IMG/VR virus record: IMGVR_UViG_3300025083_000280 | Span: 1-20,620 of that record | Strand: one strand, 5' to 3' | From: a virus | Length of the DNA: 20,620 nucleotides | Shown: one piece after another, positions 9,134-15,842 of the stretch | How the letters are laid out: the number at the start of each line of letters is the position of its first letter | How positions within the stretch are numbered: the stretch's first letter is position 1 | Program-made: the position numbers and the translations under genes | The notes under the pieces: generated by a model | The model's input: the letters and a program-made list of their open reading frames with translations, nothing else | The model's database searches: none | What the model was told of the DNA's origin: nothing

Positions 9134-12100
9134 ATGGCAGGTTACACTAGACAGTCAGTAGCAGATATTATCGCCAATGCGGTTATTAAAGCTGCCCCAG
9201 TAAACGCAGAGTACAATGCTATTCGTGATGCTTTCGCCTTTTCAGGTGGACATAAGCATGATGGTTCTTCTACGGAAGGTGCTTATGTTCCCCTTATTGC
9301 GGATGTAGATGCTTTAAACAAAGCAGTAGTAGACACAGCTAATAATCGTATCAGCTTCTTTAGTGAAGTAGGTGGTGCAGCTGTTGAGCAAGTACGCATT
9401 CAAGATGGTGCTATTGTACCTGTAACAACTAATGATGTGGATCTTGGTACTTCCTCACTTAAGTTTAAGAACTTATACGTAGAAGGTATAGGGGCAATAG
9501 GCTCTGTAACTATTCTTGGTGGTGCTGTAGACGATGCAGTAATTGGTGGAACTACCCCAGCTGCTGGTACGTTTACGTCTTTAATAGCTGCTACTGCAGA
9601 CCTTAATGGTGGGACTATTGATGATGCAGCTATCGGTGGTACAACTCCTTCTACTGGTGCATTCACCAACATAACTGCATCAGGTACGTCTGACCTGACA
9701 GGAACAACAACCATTACATCCGCTGACATTGACTCTGGTGCAATGGATAACACTGTCATTGGCGCAGCTACACCTGCTGCTATCACAGGTACTACTATTA
9801 CAGGTACGTCACTTATTGGCCCTCTCACAGGAGATGTTACTGGCGATGTCACGGGTGACTTAACTGGAGATGTCACAGGTGATCTGACAGGTAATGTAAC
9901 AGGAAATGTAACGGGTAACTTAGATGGTATTGTTGGTTCTTCCAGTCCTGCTGCTGGTAGCTTTACAACTGTATCGACATCTGGACAGGCAACCCTTGCG
10001 ACTGTTGATGTTAATGGCGGTAGCATTGACGGTACTATTATTGGAGCATCAACTGCTGCAGCTATAACTGGTACAACCATTACAGGTACTAGCCTTGTAG
10101 GTCCAGTTACAGGTAACGTCACAGGTGATCTAACAGGTGATGTAACAGGAGACTTGACTGGTGATGTAACTGGTAACGTCAATGCTTCGTCTGGTTCATC
10201 TACCTTTAACAATGTTGTAATTGATGGTACACTGAATATGAATGCTGGAACTACAGCTACTATTCAGAACCTTACTGCACCAGTAAATGACCTTGACGCA
10301 GCCACGAAAAAATATGTTGACGATGAAGTAGCTGCCCTTGTAGACTCTGCCCCCGGTACACTAGATACACTGAATGAGCTTGCTGCAGCACTAGGTGACG
10401 ATGCAGACTTTAGTAATACTGTAACAACTAGCATAGCAACCAAGCTACCCCTAGCAGGTGGTACGATGACTGGTGCTATTGCTATGAGTACATCTAAGAT
10501 TACTGGCTTAGGTGATCCGACTGCAGCCCAAGACGCAATGACCAAAGCATATGCTGACACTACTTACTTAGGTAAAGCTGGTGGCACTATGACTGGTGCT
10601 ATTGACATGGGTAGTGCTAAGATTACAACTACCTACACACCTACAGATAATGCTGATCTTACAACTAAGACGTATGTGGATGCTATCTTAGGTTCAGGAA
10701 GTGATGCCGCCGCAAGTGCCGCTGCAGCCGCTACATCAGAGACTAACGCAGCTACTTCAGAAACTAATGCTGCAACCTCTGAGACAAATGCAGCTACCAG
10801 TGAAGCTAATGCCGCAGCATCATATGATGACTTTGATGACCGCTACCTTGGTGCTAAGTCTTCTGCCCCTACAGTAGATAATGATGGCGATGCACTTATT
10901 ATTGGTGCTTTGTACTTTAACAACACAACTAACATCATGTACGTCTATGGTTCTGGTGGGTGGCAAGCTGCTGGTTCATCCGTTAACGGTACATCTGATC
11001 GTGTTACATATACTGCTACTGCTGGTCAGACAGTCTTTGCTGCTACATACGATACAGGTTATATAGATGTATACTTGAACGGTGTTAAACTGGCACCTGC
11101 TGACTTCACTGCAACTAATGGTACAAGTGTTACACTTGCATCAGGTGCAGCAGTAAATGACATTGTAGACCTTGTAGCCTACGGTACATTTGTACTGGCA
11201 GATCACTACACTGAAGCACAATCAGACGCACGGTATGTGAACCTGTCTGGCGATACTATGACGGGTGATCTGAACATCACGGGTACTTTGACTAGCGATG
11301 GGCTGACTGTGGGAATTGGCGATAATATTGGAGTAAACGCAGGTAATGGGTTTGCTGTTGATGCGTCAAGCAACATTGATTTTACTTCTGGCGGTGTAAA
11401 GTCTCTTCGGATTAAAGAGGGCGACATCAGCTTCTACGAGGACACAGGCACCACGCCAAAGTTCTTCTGGGATGCGAGTGCGGAGAGCTTATCAATAGGA
11501 AGCCCGTCATCAGATAACGTAACGATTTATTCTACAGATGACGTTCCTCGTCTTGAATTTGAGCAGGGAGGAACTGTGTATGCTGATATTGGGCATCGTG
11601 GCGCATCTGCTGGGGCAAGGCAAAACATCTTTGAAATAACAACCAAGCAAGCGGAGCCTATGGCGTTCCGCACCAACAACTCAGAAGCCATGCGCATCGA
11701 CAGCAGCGGTAATGTTGGGATTGGCACGAGTTCGCCTAGTGCTAAATTGCACATGGTTCGCAATGCTGAAAACACACTTCGTATAGAAGACACCCTAGAC
11801 AGTACTGTTATGGATTTAAGGGCAGATAGTGTTGGCGGGTTTGTAAGGACAAACGGCTCTTATCCTTTGCGTTTTTTAACCAACAACACAGAACGTATGC
11901 GCATCGACAGCAGCGGTAACTTGCTGGTGGGTAAGACATCGGGTTCTATTGGGGTTCAAGGTTTTGCTGTTCAACCCAGCGGTCAAACTAAGATAACAGA
12001 GGATGGCGCTGACGTATTAAGACTAAACCGATTAACATCAGACGGCACTATTATTGACTTCCGCAAAGACGGCACCACTGTGGGGAGTATTGGGGCGATC

Positions 12101-12640
12101 GGCGGCGATATATATGTTGGTACTGGTGACACAACATTACGTTTTTACGATGCTGGCAATGCAATCACGCCCCGTGGCACAAACGGTGCGGGTAACAACG
12201 GTGTAATTGATTTAGGCGGTTCAAGCGAACGCTTCAAAGACCTCTACCTCTCTGGCGGTGTATACCTTGGCGGCACTGGGTCGGCTAATAAGCTGGATGA
12301 CTATGAGGAGGGGAATTGGACACCAACCTCGCCCACTGTTACATTTACTGGTACACATGGACGTTATACTAAAATAGGAAGGCAAGTCATTTGGGAATGC
12401 ACATTTATAGTTCCAACCAATTCTAGTGGTGTTCAATTTACTATAGACGGTTATCCTTTTGCGCAACCGTCAGGGGCTTATGGCGGAGCATTGATCCGTT
12501 ACAGTACACTTGGATCAGTTGTTTGGTTCCATCAAAATACGGGTTATAGATGCGTTGCATACAACCAAAACGGTACGGCTACCTCTTTAGCAAGCGTTTC
12601 AGGCAAAAGATTTGACCTTGTAGGATTTTATACAACATAA
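9134..12640 (+). CDS. Long tail fibre (1168 residues)
   Basis: The N-terminus holds GGHKHDGSSTEGA (about 38-50), an HxHDG motif common in phage fibre attachment regions. A repeat-rich shaft follows. TGD/TGN tetrads run at about 231-262 and 325-348, each preceded by an AAITGTTITGTSL segment, so the region looks like a duplicated beta-solenoid module. LDAATKKYVDDEV lies at 387-399, and LAGGTMTGAI-type repeats near 440, 481 and 704. Four Ala/Ser/Thr/Glu/Asn heptads at 533-560 look like a trimeric coiled coil. YLNGVKLAPADF marks a small domain near 650. The second half has two MRIDSSGN repeats (about 853 and 921) and a C-terminal domain starting FKDLYLSGG and DDYEEGNWTP (about 1055), likely the receptor-binding tip. 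No intramolecular chaperone domain is visible. From about 11240 the codon usage shifts to more GGC and GCG, suggesting a recombined distal half. Confidence 0.9.
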   Translation: MAGYTRQSVADIIANAVIKAAPVNAEYNAIRDAFAFSGGHKHDGSSTEGAYVPLIADVDALNKAVVDTANNRISFFSEVGGAAVEQVRIQDGAIVPVTTNDVDLGTSSLKFKNLYVEGIGAIGSVTILGGAVDDAVIGGTTPAAGTFTSLIAATADLNGGTIDDAAIGGTTPSTGAFTNITASGTSDLTGTTTITSADIDSGAMDNTVIGAATPAAITGTTITGTSLIGPLTGDVTGDVTGDLTGDVTGDLTGNVTGNVTGNLDGIVGSSSPAAGSFTTVSTSGQATLATVDVNGGSIDGTIIGASTAAAITGTTITGTSLVGPVTGNVTGDLTGDVTGDLTGDVTGNVNASSGSSTFNNVVIDGTLNMNAGTTATIQNLTAPVNDLDAATKKYVDDEVAALVDSAPGTLDTLNELAAALGDDADFSNTVTTSIATKLPLAGGTMTGAIAMSTSKITGLGDPTAAQDAMTKAYADTTYLGKAGGTMTGAIDMGSAKITTTYTPTDNADLTTKTYVDAILGSGSDAAASAAAAATSETNAATSETNAATSETNAATSEANAAASYDDFDDRYLGAKSSAPTVDNDGDALIIGALYFNNTTNIMYVYGSGGWQAAGSSVNGTSDRVTYTATAGQTVFAATYDTGYIDVYLNGVKLAPADFTATNGTSVTLASGAAVNDIVDLVAYGTFVLADHYTEAQSDARYVNLSGDTMTGDLNITGTLTSDGLTVGIGDNIGVNAGNGFAVDASSNIDFTSGGVKSLRIKEGDISFYEDTGTTPKFFWDASAESLSIGSPSSDNVTIYSTDDVPRLEFEQGGTVYADIGHRGASAGARQNIFEITTKQAEPMAFRTNNSEAMRIDSSGNVGIGTSSPSAKLHMVRNAENTLRIEDTLDSTVMDLRADSVGGFVRTNGSYPLRFLTNNTERMRIDSSGNLLVGKTSGSIGVQGFAVQPSGQTKITEDGADVLRLNRLTSDGTIIDFRKDGTTVGSIGAIGGDIYVGTGDTTLRFYDAGNAITPRGTNGAGNNGVIDLGGSSERFKDLYLSGGVYLGGTGSANKLDDYEEGNWTPTSPTVTFTGTHGRYTKIGRQVIWECTFIVPTNSSGVQFTIDGYPFAQPSGAYGGALIRYSTLGSVVWFHQNTGYRCVAYNQNGTATSLASVSGKRFDLVGFYTT
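9824..9919 (+). repeat. 12-bp tandem repeats encoding VTGD/LTGD (first block)
   Basis: Eight consecutive four-residue units of the form (V/L)TG(D/N) are encoded here in the fibre shaft. Synonymous variation between units (ACA/ACG/ACT, GGA/GGT/GGC) shows that the amino acid repeat is old or selected rather than freshly slipped DNA. Confidence 0.85.
10106..10177 (+). repeat. 12-bp tandem repeats encoding VTGD/LTGD (second block)
   Basis: Six more units of the same (V/L)TG(D/N) tetrad lie about 280 bases after the first block. Both are preceded by nearly the same AAITGTTITGTSL segment, so the whole solenoid module appears duplicated within the fibre. Confidence 0.85.
10730..10813 (+). repeat. 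Four 21-bp repeats encoding ATSETNA heptads
   Basis: Three copies of ATSETNA and one of ATSEANA are encoded in tandem, following an Ala-rich run. Seven-residue periodicity with Ala and Thr at core positions is typical of the short trimeric coiled coils that join fibre segments. Confidence 0.85.
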
Positions 12641-12691: not shown

Positions 12692-13102
12692 ATGGCACTA
12701 GTTAAAGAGTGTAGAACTTGTAGTGAAACAAAACCTATCTCTGACTTTGCCAAGAATCCTACAGGAATACACGGTGTTAGAGGCACATGTAAAACATGCA
12801 GACCAAAAGACACTAGACTGACTGTTCGTGGAAGAAATGTAAAATGGCGGTATGGTATAGAATTAGATGACTTCGTAGCTATGTATGAAGATCAAGGTGG
12901 TAAGTGTGCTATCTGTCATATTGATGTAGACCTATATGCACCTGAAGATAGGAAAGCTAACGTAGCGCATGTAGATCACTGCCACACAACGGGTAAGATT
13001 AGAGCACTACTATGTCATCAGTGTAATGTAGGTATAGGTGCTTTTAGAGAAGATGCTGAAGTTTTAGAAAACGCAATACAGTATATTAAAGACCACTCTT
13101 AA
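12692..13102 (+). CDS. Endonuclease VII-like HNH nuclease with N-terminal zinc knuckle
   Basis: This 136-residue protein has two parts. The N-terminus has CRTC (Cys7, Cys10) and CKTC (Cys33, Cys36), a likely zinc-binding knuckle. The C-terminal half has GGKCAIC (Cys72, Cys75), HVDHCHTTGKIRALLCHQCN (residues 93-112) and GIGAF, the recombination endonuclease VII pattern. Asp95, His96 and Asn112 fit the catalytic positions, and Cys72, Cys75, Cys108 and Cys111 the structural zinc. Endonuclease VII cleaves branched DNA before packaging, while related free-standing HNH proteins act as homing endonucleases between structural genes. The location between a fibre gene and a small conserved gene suits a mobile or homing insertion, but debranching is equally possible. 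AGGAGA (12680-12685) precedes the ATG. Confidence 0.88.
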   Translation: MALVKECRTCSETKPISDFAKNPTGIHGVRGTCKTCRPKDTRLTVRGRNVKWRYGIELDDFVAMYEDQGGKCAICHIDVDLYAPEDRKANVAHVDHCHTTGKIRALLCHQCNVGIGAFREDAEVLENAIQYIKDHS

Positions 13103-13145: not shown

Positions 13146-13397
13146 TTGGCCTTAACAGAAGAAACAGTACAAGACAAAATAGAGATCGTAGGCGTTCACA
13201 AGCACGTTCAGGTGCGTACAGCCACGGTCATCAAGCGTGACGATGTAGAGATCAGCCGATCCTTCAGCCGCCATGTAGTAGCACCAGATGCAGACATCAC
13301 AGGTGAAAGCACAGAGGTACAAGCCATTTGTGCTGCGGTACACACACAAGCAGTCAAAGACGCATACGCAGCCCATGTAGCGGCACAAGAAGTATAA
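13146..13397 (+). CDS. Small conserved phage protein, TTG start (83 residues)
   Basis: No ATG or GTG start fits this frame. TTG at 13146 has AAGGAG 7 bases upstream (13133-13138), and the residues after it, ALTEETVQDKIEIVGVHKHV, are in the style of the N-terminus of this small phage family. The pattern QVRTATVIKRDDVEISRSF followed by HRHV-like SRHVVAP and an Ala/Val-rich helix is familiar from proteins encoded beside fibre genes in marine phages and prophages. The function is unknown. The fold is probably a small alpha/beta domain. It sits between the HNH gene and the second fibre. The rare start codon would keep expression low. Confidence 0.82.
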   Translation: MALTEETVQDKIEIVGVHKHVQVRTATVIKRDDVEISRSFSRHVVAPDADITGESTEVQAICAAVHTQAVKDAYAAHVAAQEV

Positions 13398-13412: not shown

Positions 13413-15842
13413 ATGACACGAGCAAGAGACTTAGCTGATAGTGCTGACAAGGACATTGTTGGCACACTCACATTAGATGGGCTGGATGTAGCTGGCAACG
13501 TGTCAGTCGATGGCGGCACGATCAAGCTGGACGGGAACTATCCTGTTGGTACACAAAACGTGGCGTTGGGTGATACTGCGTTGGATAGCATCACGACAGG
13601 CAAATGGAATGTTGCGTTGGGCCATGCCGCATTGACAACGGCAACAAACTCTAGTCAGCAAACAGCAATAGGTCGCCTTGCGCTGACAACAAGCAACGGT
13701 TCGGATAATACTGCTGTCGGTTTTAATGCTGCAAATGCAAATACATCTGGCACAAGTAACACGGCAATTGGCGCTCAGTCTCTAAACTCCAACACCACCG
13801 CAAGCGGCAACACTGCGGTTGGGTATCAGGCGTCATATGCAAATACAACGGGCGCACAAAATACTGCGTTAGGTTACCAAGCATTACTTGATGCAACCAC
13901 AGCCAACTTTAACACCTCTTTGGGTTATCAGTCGGGCTTTAATATCACAACAGGCAGTCACAATACTGCGATTGGTCGCAACGCTTTATTTGATAATACA
14001 ACAGGAGCTTCCAATGTCGCTGTTGGAAACCAAGCCTTAGAGGATAACACAGCGTCTAATAATACTGCTCTAGGGTATGAGGCACTTCGCCTCAACACCA
14101 CCGCAAGTAACAACACTGCGGTTGGGTATCAAGCTGCGTACACTAATACTACAGGAACAAGGCTAGTTGGTTTGGGCCGCAGAGCTTTGTACAACAACAC
14201 TACGGGTAGTGATAATATAGCAATGGGCTACAACTCTCTGTTGTCTAATAGCACAGGCGCAAATAACACTGCACTTGGTTCATATGCTCTCACTGCCAAC
14301 ACCACCGCAAGCAACAACACAGCAGTTGGATACCAAGCTGGTTATAGTAATACTACTGGAGAGTATAACACGGCGGTTGGGGCGCAGGCACTAGATGCGA
14401 ACACCGTAGGATACCGAAACGTAGCGATAGGTTACACAGCCCTTACATCTTCCGATGCGGATGACAACACCGCTATTGGCTATGGTTCAATGAACCTTAC
14501 CACATCGGGAACAGACAGCGTTGGCGTTGGTGGATATACACTAAACCAAACCACAACGGGTTATAGTAATGTTGCAGTTGGTTTCTCAGCTTTAAGAAAT
14601 AACACCACCGCCAGCGAAAACACTGCGGTTGGCAAAAGTGCATTGCATTACAACACGACTGGCGCAGAGAATACGGCGGTTGGCTATAAGGCTATGGAGG
14701 ACAATACCACAGGTACCTATAACGTAGCCTTGGGGCGTTTAGCATTGGCTAACAACACCACCGCCAGCGAAAACACTGCGGTTGGGTATCAGGCTTTGTA
14801 TACAAATAACGCACCAAGTGTAACGGGTATTGGCTACCGTGCGGGTTATTCTAACACAGGTGATAAAAACGTCTTTGTTGGAACAGATGCAGGTTTTGAC
14901 AATACCTCTGGTCGTTTGAATACGTTTGTCGGGAACGATGCAGGTCAAAACAATACTACCGCATCTAACAACACGTTTATCGGTCAATCGTCAGGTTTTT
15001 CAACCACGACAGGCGCATCCAACACAGCAGTTGGGGATCAGTCCCTTATCTTCAACACCACCGCAAGTAACAACACAGCAGTTGGGTATAAGGCTGGGTA
15101 TAGTAATACTACGGGTGATTTGCAAAGTGCGTTTGGAAGTCTTGCATTATACTCCAATACGACAGGTGCGAGAAACAACGCCTTTGGTCGTGAAGCACTG
15201 TATGATAACACCACAGGTAATTATAACTCTGCTTTCGGCAATCAGACATTGTGGGAGAATAGCACAGGCTCTAACAACTCTGCCTTTGGTTATCAGGCCC
15301 TCCTCAACAACACCACCGCCAGCCAAAGCACTGCGGTTGGGTATCAGGCTGGATACAGCACCACCACTGGACACTCTACTGCGTTTCTGGGTCGAATGGC
15401 TGGATTTTCAAATACCACAGGTGTTCAAAACACATTTATTGGCGAGCAGTCAGGATATTATGTATCCACTGGCTCCAAGAACACCATCCTAGGCCGTTAC
15501 TCAGGCAACCAAGGCGGCTTGGACATCCGCACCTCAAGCAACAACATCGTGCTGTCGGATGGGGATGGTAACGTAAGGGCGCACTGTGACTCAAGTGGTA
15601 CTTGGACAGGCGTTGGCAGTAGTACAACCGCTGGTGATGTTGGTACTTATGCTATGGCTGGTGGACTATCGTTTACTTCTCAATTTGGTGACACAAGAGC
15701 GGGAAGCTCTATAAGGCCTAGAAGCCCAGTGGACCATGGGACTTATGGTTACTTAACAGGAACATGGCGGTGTATGGGGTATCACCAATATGAAACTAAT
15801 TGGAATGCAGGCAACACAACCATTTGGGTAAGGATTTCATAA
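13413..15842 (+). CDS. Second tail fibre, YadA-like beta-roll repeats (809 residues)
   Basis: The N-terminus, MTRARDLADSADKDIVGTLT, is a recurrent start of marine phage fibres and probably the attachment or assembly segment. Residues 49-689 consist of about 38 units of mostly 17 residues with the pattern NTAVGYQAxxxNTTGxx. This resembles the left-handed parallel beta-roll heads of trimeric autotransporter adhesins such as YadA. The shaft should therefore be a long trimeric roll with an Asn/Thr ladder on one face. The last 120 residues differ and contain GTWRCMGY and TTIWVRIS at the end, a tip style common in phage fibres. AGGGGA precedes ATG 13413. The stop overlaps the chaperone start. It may branch from, or be an alternative to, the 1168-residue fibre. 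No enzymatic motif is visible. Confidence 0.88.
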   Translation: MTRARDLADSADKDIVGTLTLDGLDVAGNVSVDGGTIKLDGNYPVGTQNVALGDTALDSITTGKWNVALGHAALTTATNSSQQTAIGRLALTTSNGSDNTAVGFNAANANTSGTSNTAIGAQSLNSNTTASGNTAVGYQASYANTTGAQNTALGYQALLDATTANFNTSLGYQSGFNITTGSHNTAIGRNALFDNTTGASNVAVGNQALEDNTASNNTALGYEALRLNTTASNNTAVGYQAAYTNTTGTRLVGLGRRALYNNTTGSDNIAMGYNSLLSNSTGANNTALGSYALTANTTASNNTAVGYQAGYSNTTGEYNTAVGAQALDANTVGYRNVAIGYTALTSSDADDNTAIGYGSMNLTTSGTDSVGVGGYTLNQTTTGYSNVAVGFSALRNNTTASENTAVGKSALHYNTTGAENTAVGYKAMEDNTTGTYNVALGRLALANNTTASENTAVGYQALYTNNAPSVTGIGYRAGYSNTGDKNVFVGTDAGFDNTSGRLNTFVGNDAGQNNTTASNNTFIGQSSGFSTTTGASNTAVGDQSLIFNTTASNNTAVGYKAGYSNTTGDLQSAFGSLALYSNTTGARNNAFGREALYDNTTGNYNSAFGNQTLWENSTGSNNSAFGYQALLNNTTASQSTAVGYQAGYSTTTGHSTAFLGRMAGFSNTTGVQNTFIGEQSGYYVSTGSKNTILGRYSGNQGGLDIRTSSNNIVLSDGDGNVRAHCDSSGTWTGVGSSTTAGDVGTYAMAGGLSFTSQFGDTRAGSSIRPRSPVDHGTYGYLTGTWRCMGYHQYETNWNAGNTTIWVRIS
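13557..15479 (+). repeat. About 38 tandem 51-bp units within the second fibre gene
   Basis: The 17-residue protein repeat is also a DNA repeat of 51 bp with a few 48-bp variants. A 41-bp block beginning AACACCACCGC is conserved at seven places, starting near 13791, 14094, 14298, 14601, 14754, 15054 and 15309. The gaps of 303, 204, 303, 153, 300 and 255 bases are whole numbers of repeat units within the 3-base indels. Confidence 0.85.

Follow-up and report, generated by a model that had tools for sequence, protein, structure and literature searches.

Recombination at a short, conserved DNA block probably exchanges cassettes of a repetitive fibre gene between different phages, and occasionally deletes one—a reading to which a probability of roughly 0.7 is assigned from sequence comparison. 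The window, that is, the whole 20,620-nucleotide stretch of viral DNA analyzed here, is a linear fragment in IMG/VR. The repeat array of its fibre would be a mosaic of cassettes of a few units each, parted by short DNA blocks. These blocks could act as start or end points for homologous recombination because they are near-identical within and between phages, with the DNA between them diverged. A crossover between the blocks of two phages would replace a cassette in frame and alter the array sequence; it would also alter array length, since cassettes hold different numbers of units. A crossover between two blocks of one gene would delete or duplicate one cassette. Such exchange presumably takes place during co-infection, by means of phage or host recombinases, and the same process presumably built the window's own array. 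Overall, the dominant process appears to be exchange of block-bounded cassettes between different phages, and not switching within a clone.

The array fibre and its DNA block

The coat protein encoded in the window is 97.8% identical to its counterpart in Roseobacter phage CRP-13 and 69% identical to the HMO-2011 protein, and the window carries an HMO-2011/CRP-13-like structural module. No array fibre is present at the corresponding position in CRP-13; related array fibres, with the block present, occur in the cultured isolates CRP-1 and CRP-7.

The array fibre gene (13413..15842, plus strand, from the ORF list) encodes 809 amino acids and consists of three parts, all on the plus strand. The conserved N-terminal segment (13413..13556; MTRARDLAD...GGTIKLDGNYPVGTQ) is common to many array fibres: used as a query, it retrieved 80 loci, and at the DNA level it shows 90–96% identity between fibres that otherwise differ. 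The tandem array (13557..15530) comprises 39 units of 17 (some 16) residues in the unit table, with the consensus NTAVGYQALxxNTTGxx. The C-terminal part (15531..15839) begins with a conserved linker (TSSNNIVLSDGDGNVR) and ends, according to alignments, in a tip varying among relatives; this C-terminus is a phage fibre tip, and CRP-1 and CRP-7 end differently. With respect to protein families, the fibre matches virion structural and tail spike families in PHROGs, with E values down to 4e-122, and a putative tail structural protein of CRP-1 at 46% protein identity. For the 809-residue protein, a Pfam search up to E 0.01 gave no family, and a PDB sequence search gave nothing useful. Units between the blocks are diverged, with about 61–74% identity to a reference unit, and Tandem Repeats Finder reported no array in the gene because these units are too diverged. 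The near-identical, head-to-tail repeats of contingency-locus adhesins are therefore not what the gene contains.

The block core, AACACCACCGC, encodes NTTA and is often followed by ...AACACNGCNGTTGGGTATCAGGC, the two together encoding NTTAS-x-NTAVGYQAG. In the window, the full block pattern is AACACCACCGC[A/C]AG[C/T]nnnAACAC[T/A]GC[G/A]GTTGG, and it lies at seven unit junctions on the plus strand: 13791..13831, 14094..14134, 14298..14338, 14601..14641, 14754..14794, 15054..15094, and 15309..15349. The 32-nt core of the block matches at the first position of each of these seven copies, and 100 dinucleotide shuffles gave zero matches. All seven copies are in one reading frame and encode N-T-T-A-S-x-[N/S]-T-A-V-G. 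Thus, the seven in-register copies of the original prediction are borne out. Its further statement that they are nearly identical over 41 bp holds for most of them, but the fourth departs from the others beyond about 32 nt (...GGCAAAAGTGC in place of ...GGGTATCAGGC); the seventh has one mismatch to the core pattern. An eighth NTTAS (14952..14966, plus strand) is written in other codons (AATACTACCGCATCT) and does not belong to the DNA block family. The predicted spacing, always by whole 51-bp units, proved incorrect: the gaps between blocks are 303, 204, 303, 153, 300, and 255 bp, corresponding to 6, 4, 6, 3, 6, and 5 whole units. Only 204, 153, and 255 are divisible by 51; the others (303, 303, and 300 bp) depart from this period because the array also includes 48-bp units. 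When the window array was compared with all collected loci, foreign matches fell almost only at the blocks, with a mean depth of 160 inside them and 13.8 outside.

A second fibre gene (9134–12640, 1168 amino acids) contains short tandem repeats of its own, with periods of 24, 12, and 21 bp at 9825, 10109, and 10730, respectively, and it too looks mosaic because parts of it match CRP-5 and CRP-227. Between this region and the array fibre, a small gene with a TTG start (13146–13397) encodes 83 amino acids and has more than 540 viral relatives, the best of them 88–96% identical. An array fibre was present in only 6 of the 80 neighborhoods fetched for this gene; very different genes therefore adjoin the same small gene.

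Segments shared between array genes

A comparison of 211 non-redundant array genes yielded 41 internal segments that recur in different genes with 88–99% identity. The reading frame is the same in every case, and the unit offset mostly differs. In 36 of the 41 pairs, the two loci shared less than 700 nt of other similar DNA within the collected sequences, and in 40 of the 41 the contig names indicate different samples. Of the left edges of these segments, 32.5% lay no more than 3 nt from a block start and 42.5% no more than 15 nt; of the right edges, 36.6% lay no more than 15 nt from a block end. Both ends lay at blocks in 8 of the 41 segments. A first null of random in-register grafts gave 3.8% (left, 3 nt), 9.6% (left, 15 nt), 9.1% (right), and 0.4 segments with both ends at blocks. 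A strict null, in which block was aligned to block so as to let alignments overrun through the conserved block, gave 7.8%, 13.8%, 11.7%, and 0.84, respectively. The observed values were reached in none of 1000 simulations under either null, and edges at blocks were about 3–4 times as frequent as under the strict null. Roughly half of the segment edges lie away from blocks. Some one third of the array loci had been fetched with the block itself, and the simulations use the same genes.

The same analysis was made with an enlarged set of 66 segments. For the 46 pairs in which both genes have the DNA form of the block, the paired edge values were 48.8% and 39.1%, against 13.8% and 12.6% under the null; for the other 20 pairs they were 5% and 5%, against 5% and 5%, that is, with no edge effect. 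The edge effect is thus confined to pairs in which both genes have the DNA form, in a split of the 66 segments that was made after a weaker signal had been seen in the later loci. These later loci (L408 and above, 26 pairs) gave 20% and 12% against 7% and 7% under the strict null, with no segment having both ends at blocks. A replicate set assembled through the neighboring 83-residue gene yielded only 3 usable pairs, and a linkage test across anchors pointed in the same direction with too few pairs and a right side confounded by the blocks of the next unit.

Individual cases illustrate the shared segments. The loci L335 and L381 share 95% identity from the upstream region through the array as far as a block's end; their array sequences then differ, and downstream the identity returns, at 98%. 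A 518-nt array segment is shared by L092 and L113 with 99.2% identity at different offsets. The isolate CRP-7 shares 210 nt with the contig L111 at 94.8% identity, starting 1 nt before a CRP-7 block. Furthermore, 17 pairs of sister phages have conserved flanks and replaced arrays, with ORFs that differ by 15–465 nt. With respect to the window's own cassettes, a near-identical match elsewhere was found only in L007. A separate observation concerns the contig L095, which is identical to the window over 123 nt (13982–14104), up to a point inside the second block copy after which it has other array sequence, at its contig end; this match may represent either a real variant or an assembly-graph overlap.

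Array length and competing explanations

It had been predicted that recombination between block copies would delete or duplicate whole repeat units without a frameshift, and that the shaft could vary in length as in bacterial adhesins. In its fullest form—repeats recombining within one lineage, with shaft length switching among progeny—this explanation is judged unlikely. The block copies are in frame, as it would require, and they are somewhat more alike within a gene (83%) than between genes (75%), over 15 nt. Indeed, one pair of contigs, L485 and L488, is 99.9% identical except for a 327-nt (109-codon) cassette absent from L488, the junction of which lies in the block, at a 26-bp identical repeat (AACACCACAGCCTCAAGCAACACTGC) present twice in L485. 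However, in L007, the only near-identical relative of the window that was found, the 1852 bp of fibre sequence match the window without a single difference, although 38 SNPs lie in other parts. Furthermore, 94 close pairs of distinct contigs were defined by at least 95% identity over at least 8 units, 52 of them being not fully identical and not all of them independent; no indel of at least 40 nt was found inside their alignments, and the change between L485 and L488 is the only whole-cassette change among them. The indel scan missed this change because it splits the alignment; it came to light when pairs having an additional aligned piece were examined. Duplicates of 80 nt or more within a gene were likewise scarce (6 segments in 5 of the 211 genes), and the units between blocks are strongly diverged.

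Loss of units in frame through the repeats is therefore seen in one deletion at a block, but it does not appear to be the main process. Over the 1852 bp compared, the repeat number of the window and its sibling is the same, and 1 of the 94 close pairs differs by a whole cassette. Since the 17 sister pairs have replaced arrays and the close pairs are largely unchanged, fibre length varies between lineages, mostly by replacement of arrays and not by a slipping repeat count. Two further candidates for a change in the array were rejected: the difference between L484 and L487 lies outside the array, and a 315-bp difference between L250 and both L236 and L267 lies in the upstream shaft domain. This latter change, in an N-terminal shaft domain and flanked by a 38-bp imperfect repeat (QQSIKAYVD), appears to be a further example, in this gene family, of an in-frame change brought about by repeats.

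Slightly less probable again is that the block is conserved only through protein function, codon choice, or base composition, and that the shared segments reflect ordinary gene exchange in which the block has no role. Use of the core does depend on the G+C content of the gene, rising from 5% of sites below 36% G+C to 82% above 48%, and base composition therefore contributes. The fibres of low-GC pelagiphages and of Venkman (an OM43 phage) also contain NTTAS at the protein level, written in other codons. However, the NTTG sites of the same genes are without the codon pattern. Codon usage was compared in 118 non-redundant fibre genes that had been retrieved through their N- or C-terminal parts rather than through the block: AAC, ACC, and ACC were used for the NTT of NTTAS in 77%, 65%, and 50% of cases, respectively, compared with 47%, 23%, and 3% for the NTT of NTTG. 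In a 54-gene subset with sites followed by NTA[VIL]G, the corresponding values were 91%, 88%, and 71% for NTTAS and 56%, 23%, and 8% for NTTG. In a separate gene-by-gene comparison, AACACCACC was more frequent at NTTAS sites in 52 genes, against 2 in which NTTG sites had more of it (p 1.6e-13). The edges of shared segments, moreover, lie on the block and not on NTTG sites, which are three times as numerous and take only 10% of left edges, and pairs in which the protein motif occurs without the DNA form show no edge effect. A search with the block pattern gave at least 120 stretches in viral contigs; in 257 Gb of bacterial and archaeal genomes, a somewhat looser pattern matched 3 stretches. The block is conserved at synonymous sites across many phage fibres.

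An active role of the block, as a Chi-like recombination signal or as the target of a nuclease, in place of passive homology, is improbable. The core occurs 683 times in array ORFs, every copy in the sense orientation and in frame, as might be expected of a directional signal; orientation and frame, however, also follow from coding function, and no inverted repeats of the kind used in site-specific inversion were found, all 683 of these copies sharing one orientation. Outside recognized array ORFs the core is rare: 2.78 Mb contain 28 copies, where about 1.2 would be expected, and some of these may lie in array fragments missed by the unit finder. A Chi-like hotspot was rejected on this distribution, the core being largely confined to array ORFs, unlike genome-wide Chi. 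As for a nuclease, an endonuclease VII-type (HNH) gene (12692–13102) lies between the two fibre genes, upstream of the array fibre. A relative of it was found in only 1 of 266 array loci, within the DNA examined per locus; it was therefore rejected as the driver and looks like an independent insertion.

Least probable of all is that the mosaic pattern is an artifact of misassembly, or of chimeric reads, at short repeats. Metagenome contigs do make up most of the data, and the identity between L095 and the window covers 123 nt at the end of a contig. However, the shared segments are 88–99% and not 100% identical, and the contig names assign the members of 40 of the 41 pairs to different samples. 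In addition, isolate genomes have the block and the segment shared by CRP-7 starts at its block, and the 26-bp exact repeat in L485 and L488 is shorter than the final k-mers usually used in assembly. Recombination at the blocks between different phages remains the preferred reading.

Predicted fold, related systems, and meaning for phage fibres

An AlphaFold2 monomer model of ten units had a mean pLDDT of 78.9 and a pTM of 0.76, with regular short strands in each unit. In structural comparison, its top matches were the heads of trimeric autotransporter adhesins, namely CbpF (9gh4, Z 15.4), YadA (1p9h, 15.3), UspA1 (3pr7, 14.5), and AtaA (3wp8, 14.2), with rmsd values of 2.0–3.5. The left-handed beta-helix acyltransferases LpxD and GlmU, however, scored Z of about 14, within about 1 Z of these heads. 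The resemblance to a trimeric autotransporter head that had been proposed is thus plausible on the monomer model, but it is not exclusive, because the acyltransferase helices score nearly equally. The array is likely to form a left-handed parallel roll or helix, for which a YadA-like head is a plausible form. The likeness to such heads would lie in the predicted left-handed parallel beta-roll with its regular short strands; unlike them, the array belongs to a phage virion gene and has a 17-residue unit. Neither membership in the Pfam YadA-head family (at E up to 0.01) nor a C-terminal YadA membrane anchor was found, the protein having no Pfam hit and ending in a phage fibre tip. The array is presumably surface-exposed and affects adsorption. 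The ten-unit model also has structural matches among the predicted proteins of chloroviruses and of several giant viruses (Bodo saltans virus, Gaeavirus, and Tupanvirus), and the same repeat type may therefore occur in viruses of eukaryotes.

Recombination between conserved motifs is a feature of the distal tail-fibre adhesin genes (gp38 type) of T-even phages, and these appear, by analogy, to be the nearest known system. In both cases, short conserved motifs part the hypervariable segments of a host-recognition gene, and recombination would swap the segments. Indeed, two properties of the T-even type of exchange—conserved DNA motifs interspersed with variable segments, and exchange between phages with breakpoints at the motifs—are both apparent in the array genes. 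The T-even adhesins, however, have few, glycine-rich motifs in a non-repetitive adhesin, whereas up to nine NTTAS blocks per gene were counted here, in a long tandem array, and the block is common at the DNA level to many marine and other phages. Exchange of the cassettes may also alter host recognition.

A marine phage tail fibre with a C-terminal YadA domain has been described, in which the YadA-domain part under-recruits and is therefore hypervariable in the population, as part of metaviromic islands (Mizuno et al., 2014; PMC3909814). Repeat anatomy, a DNA block, cassette boundaries, and an exchange mechanism do not appear in the passages of that paper that were consulted. In HMO-2011-type roseophages, including CRP-9 and CRP-13, exchange of whole modules between phage groups has been reported, with module boundaries that remained elusive (PMC8528129). 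The window belongs to the same phage group, and the boundaries described here lie within one gene and are resolved to tens of bases. The block is described in the consulted passages of neither paper, and no description of fibre length variation or of the block motif was found in the open-access literature.

A further possibility, which is advanced only tentatively, is that the block is kept as a common crossover sequence, with lineages that have matching blocks continuing to trade cassettes in a decentralized pool that spans marine and other phages. The joints of exchange in host-recognition genes usually cannot be located in mosaic genomes; here, they would correspond to a specific short DNA sequence. 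It is accordingly predicted that recoding of the block would reduce exchange, and that cassettes would move in frame where the block is kept. Repeat fibres are common in marine viromes, and the window belongs to an abundant, roseophage-type group. In such phages, the block could mark cassettes that are moving between populations.
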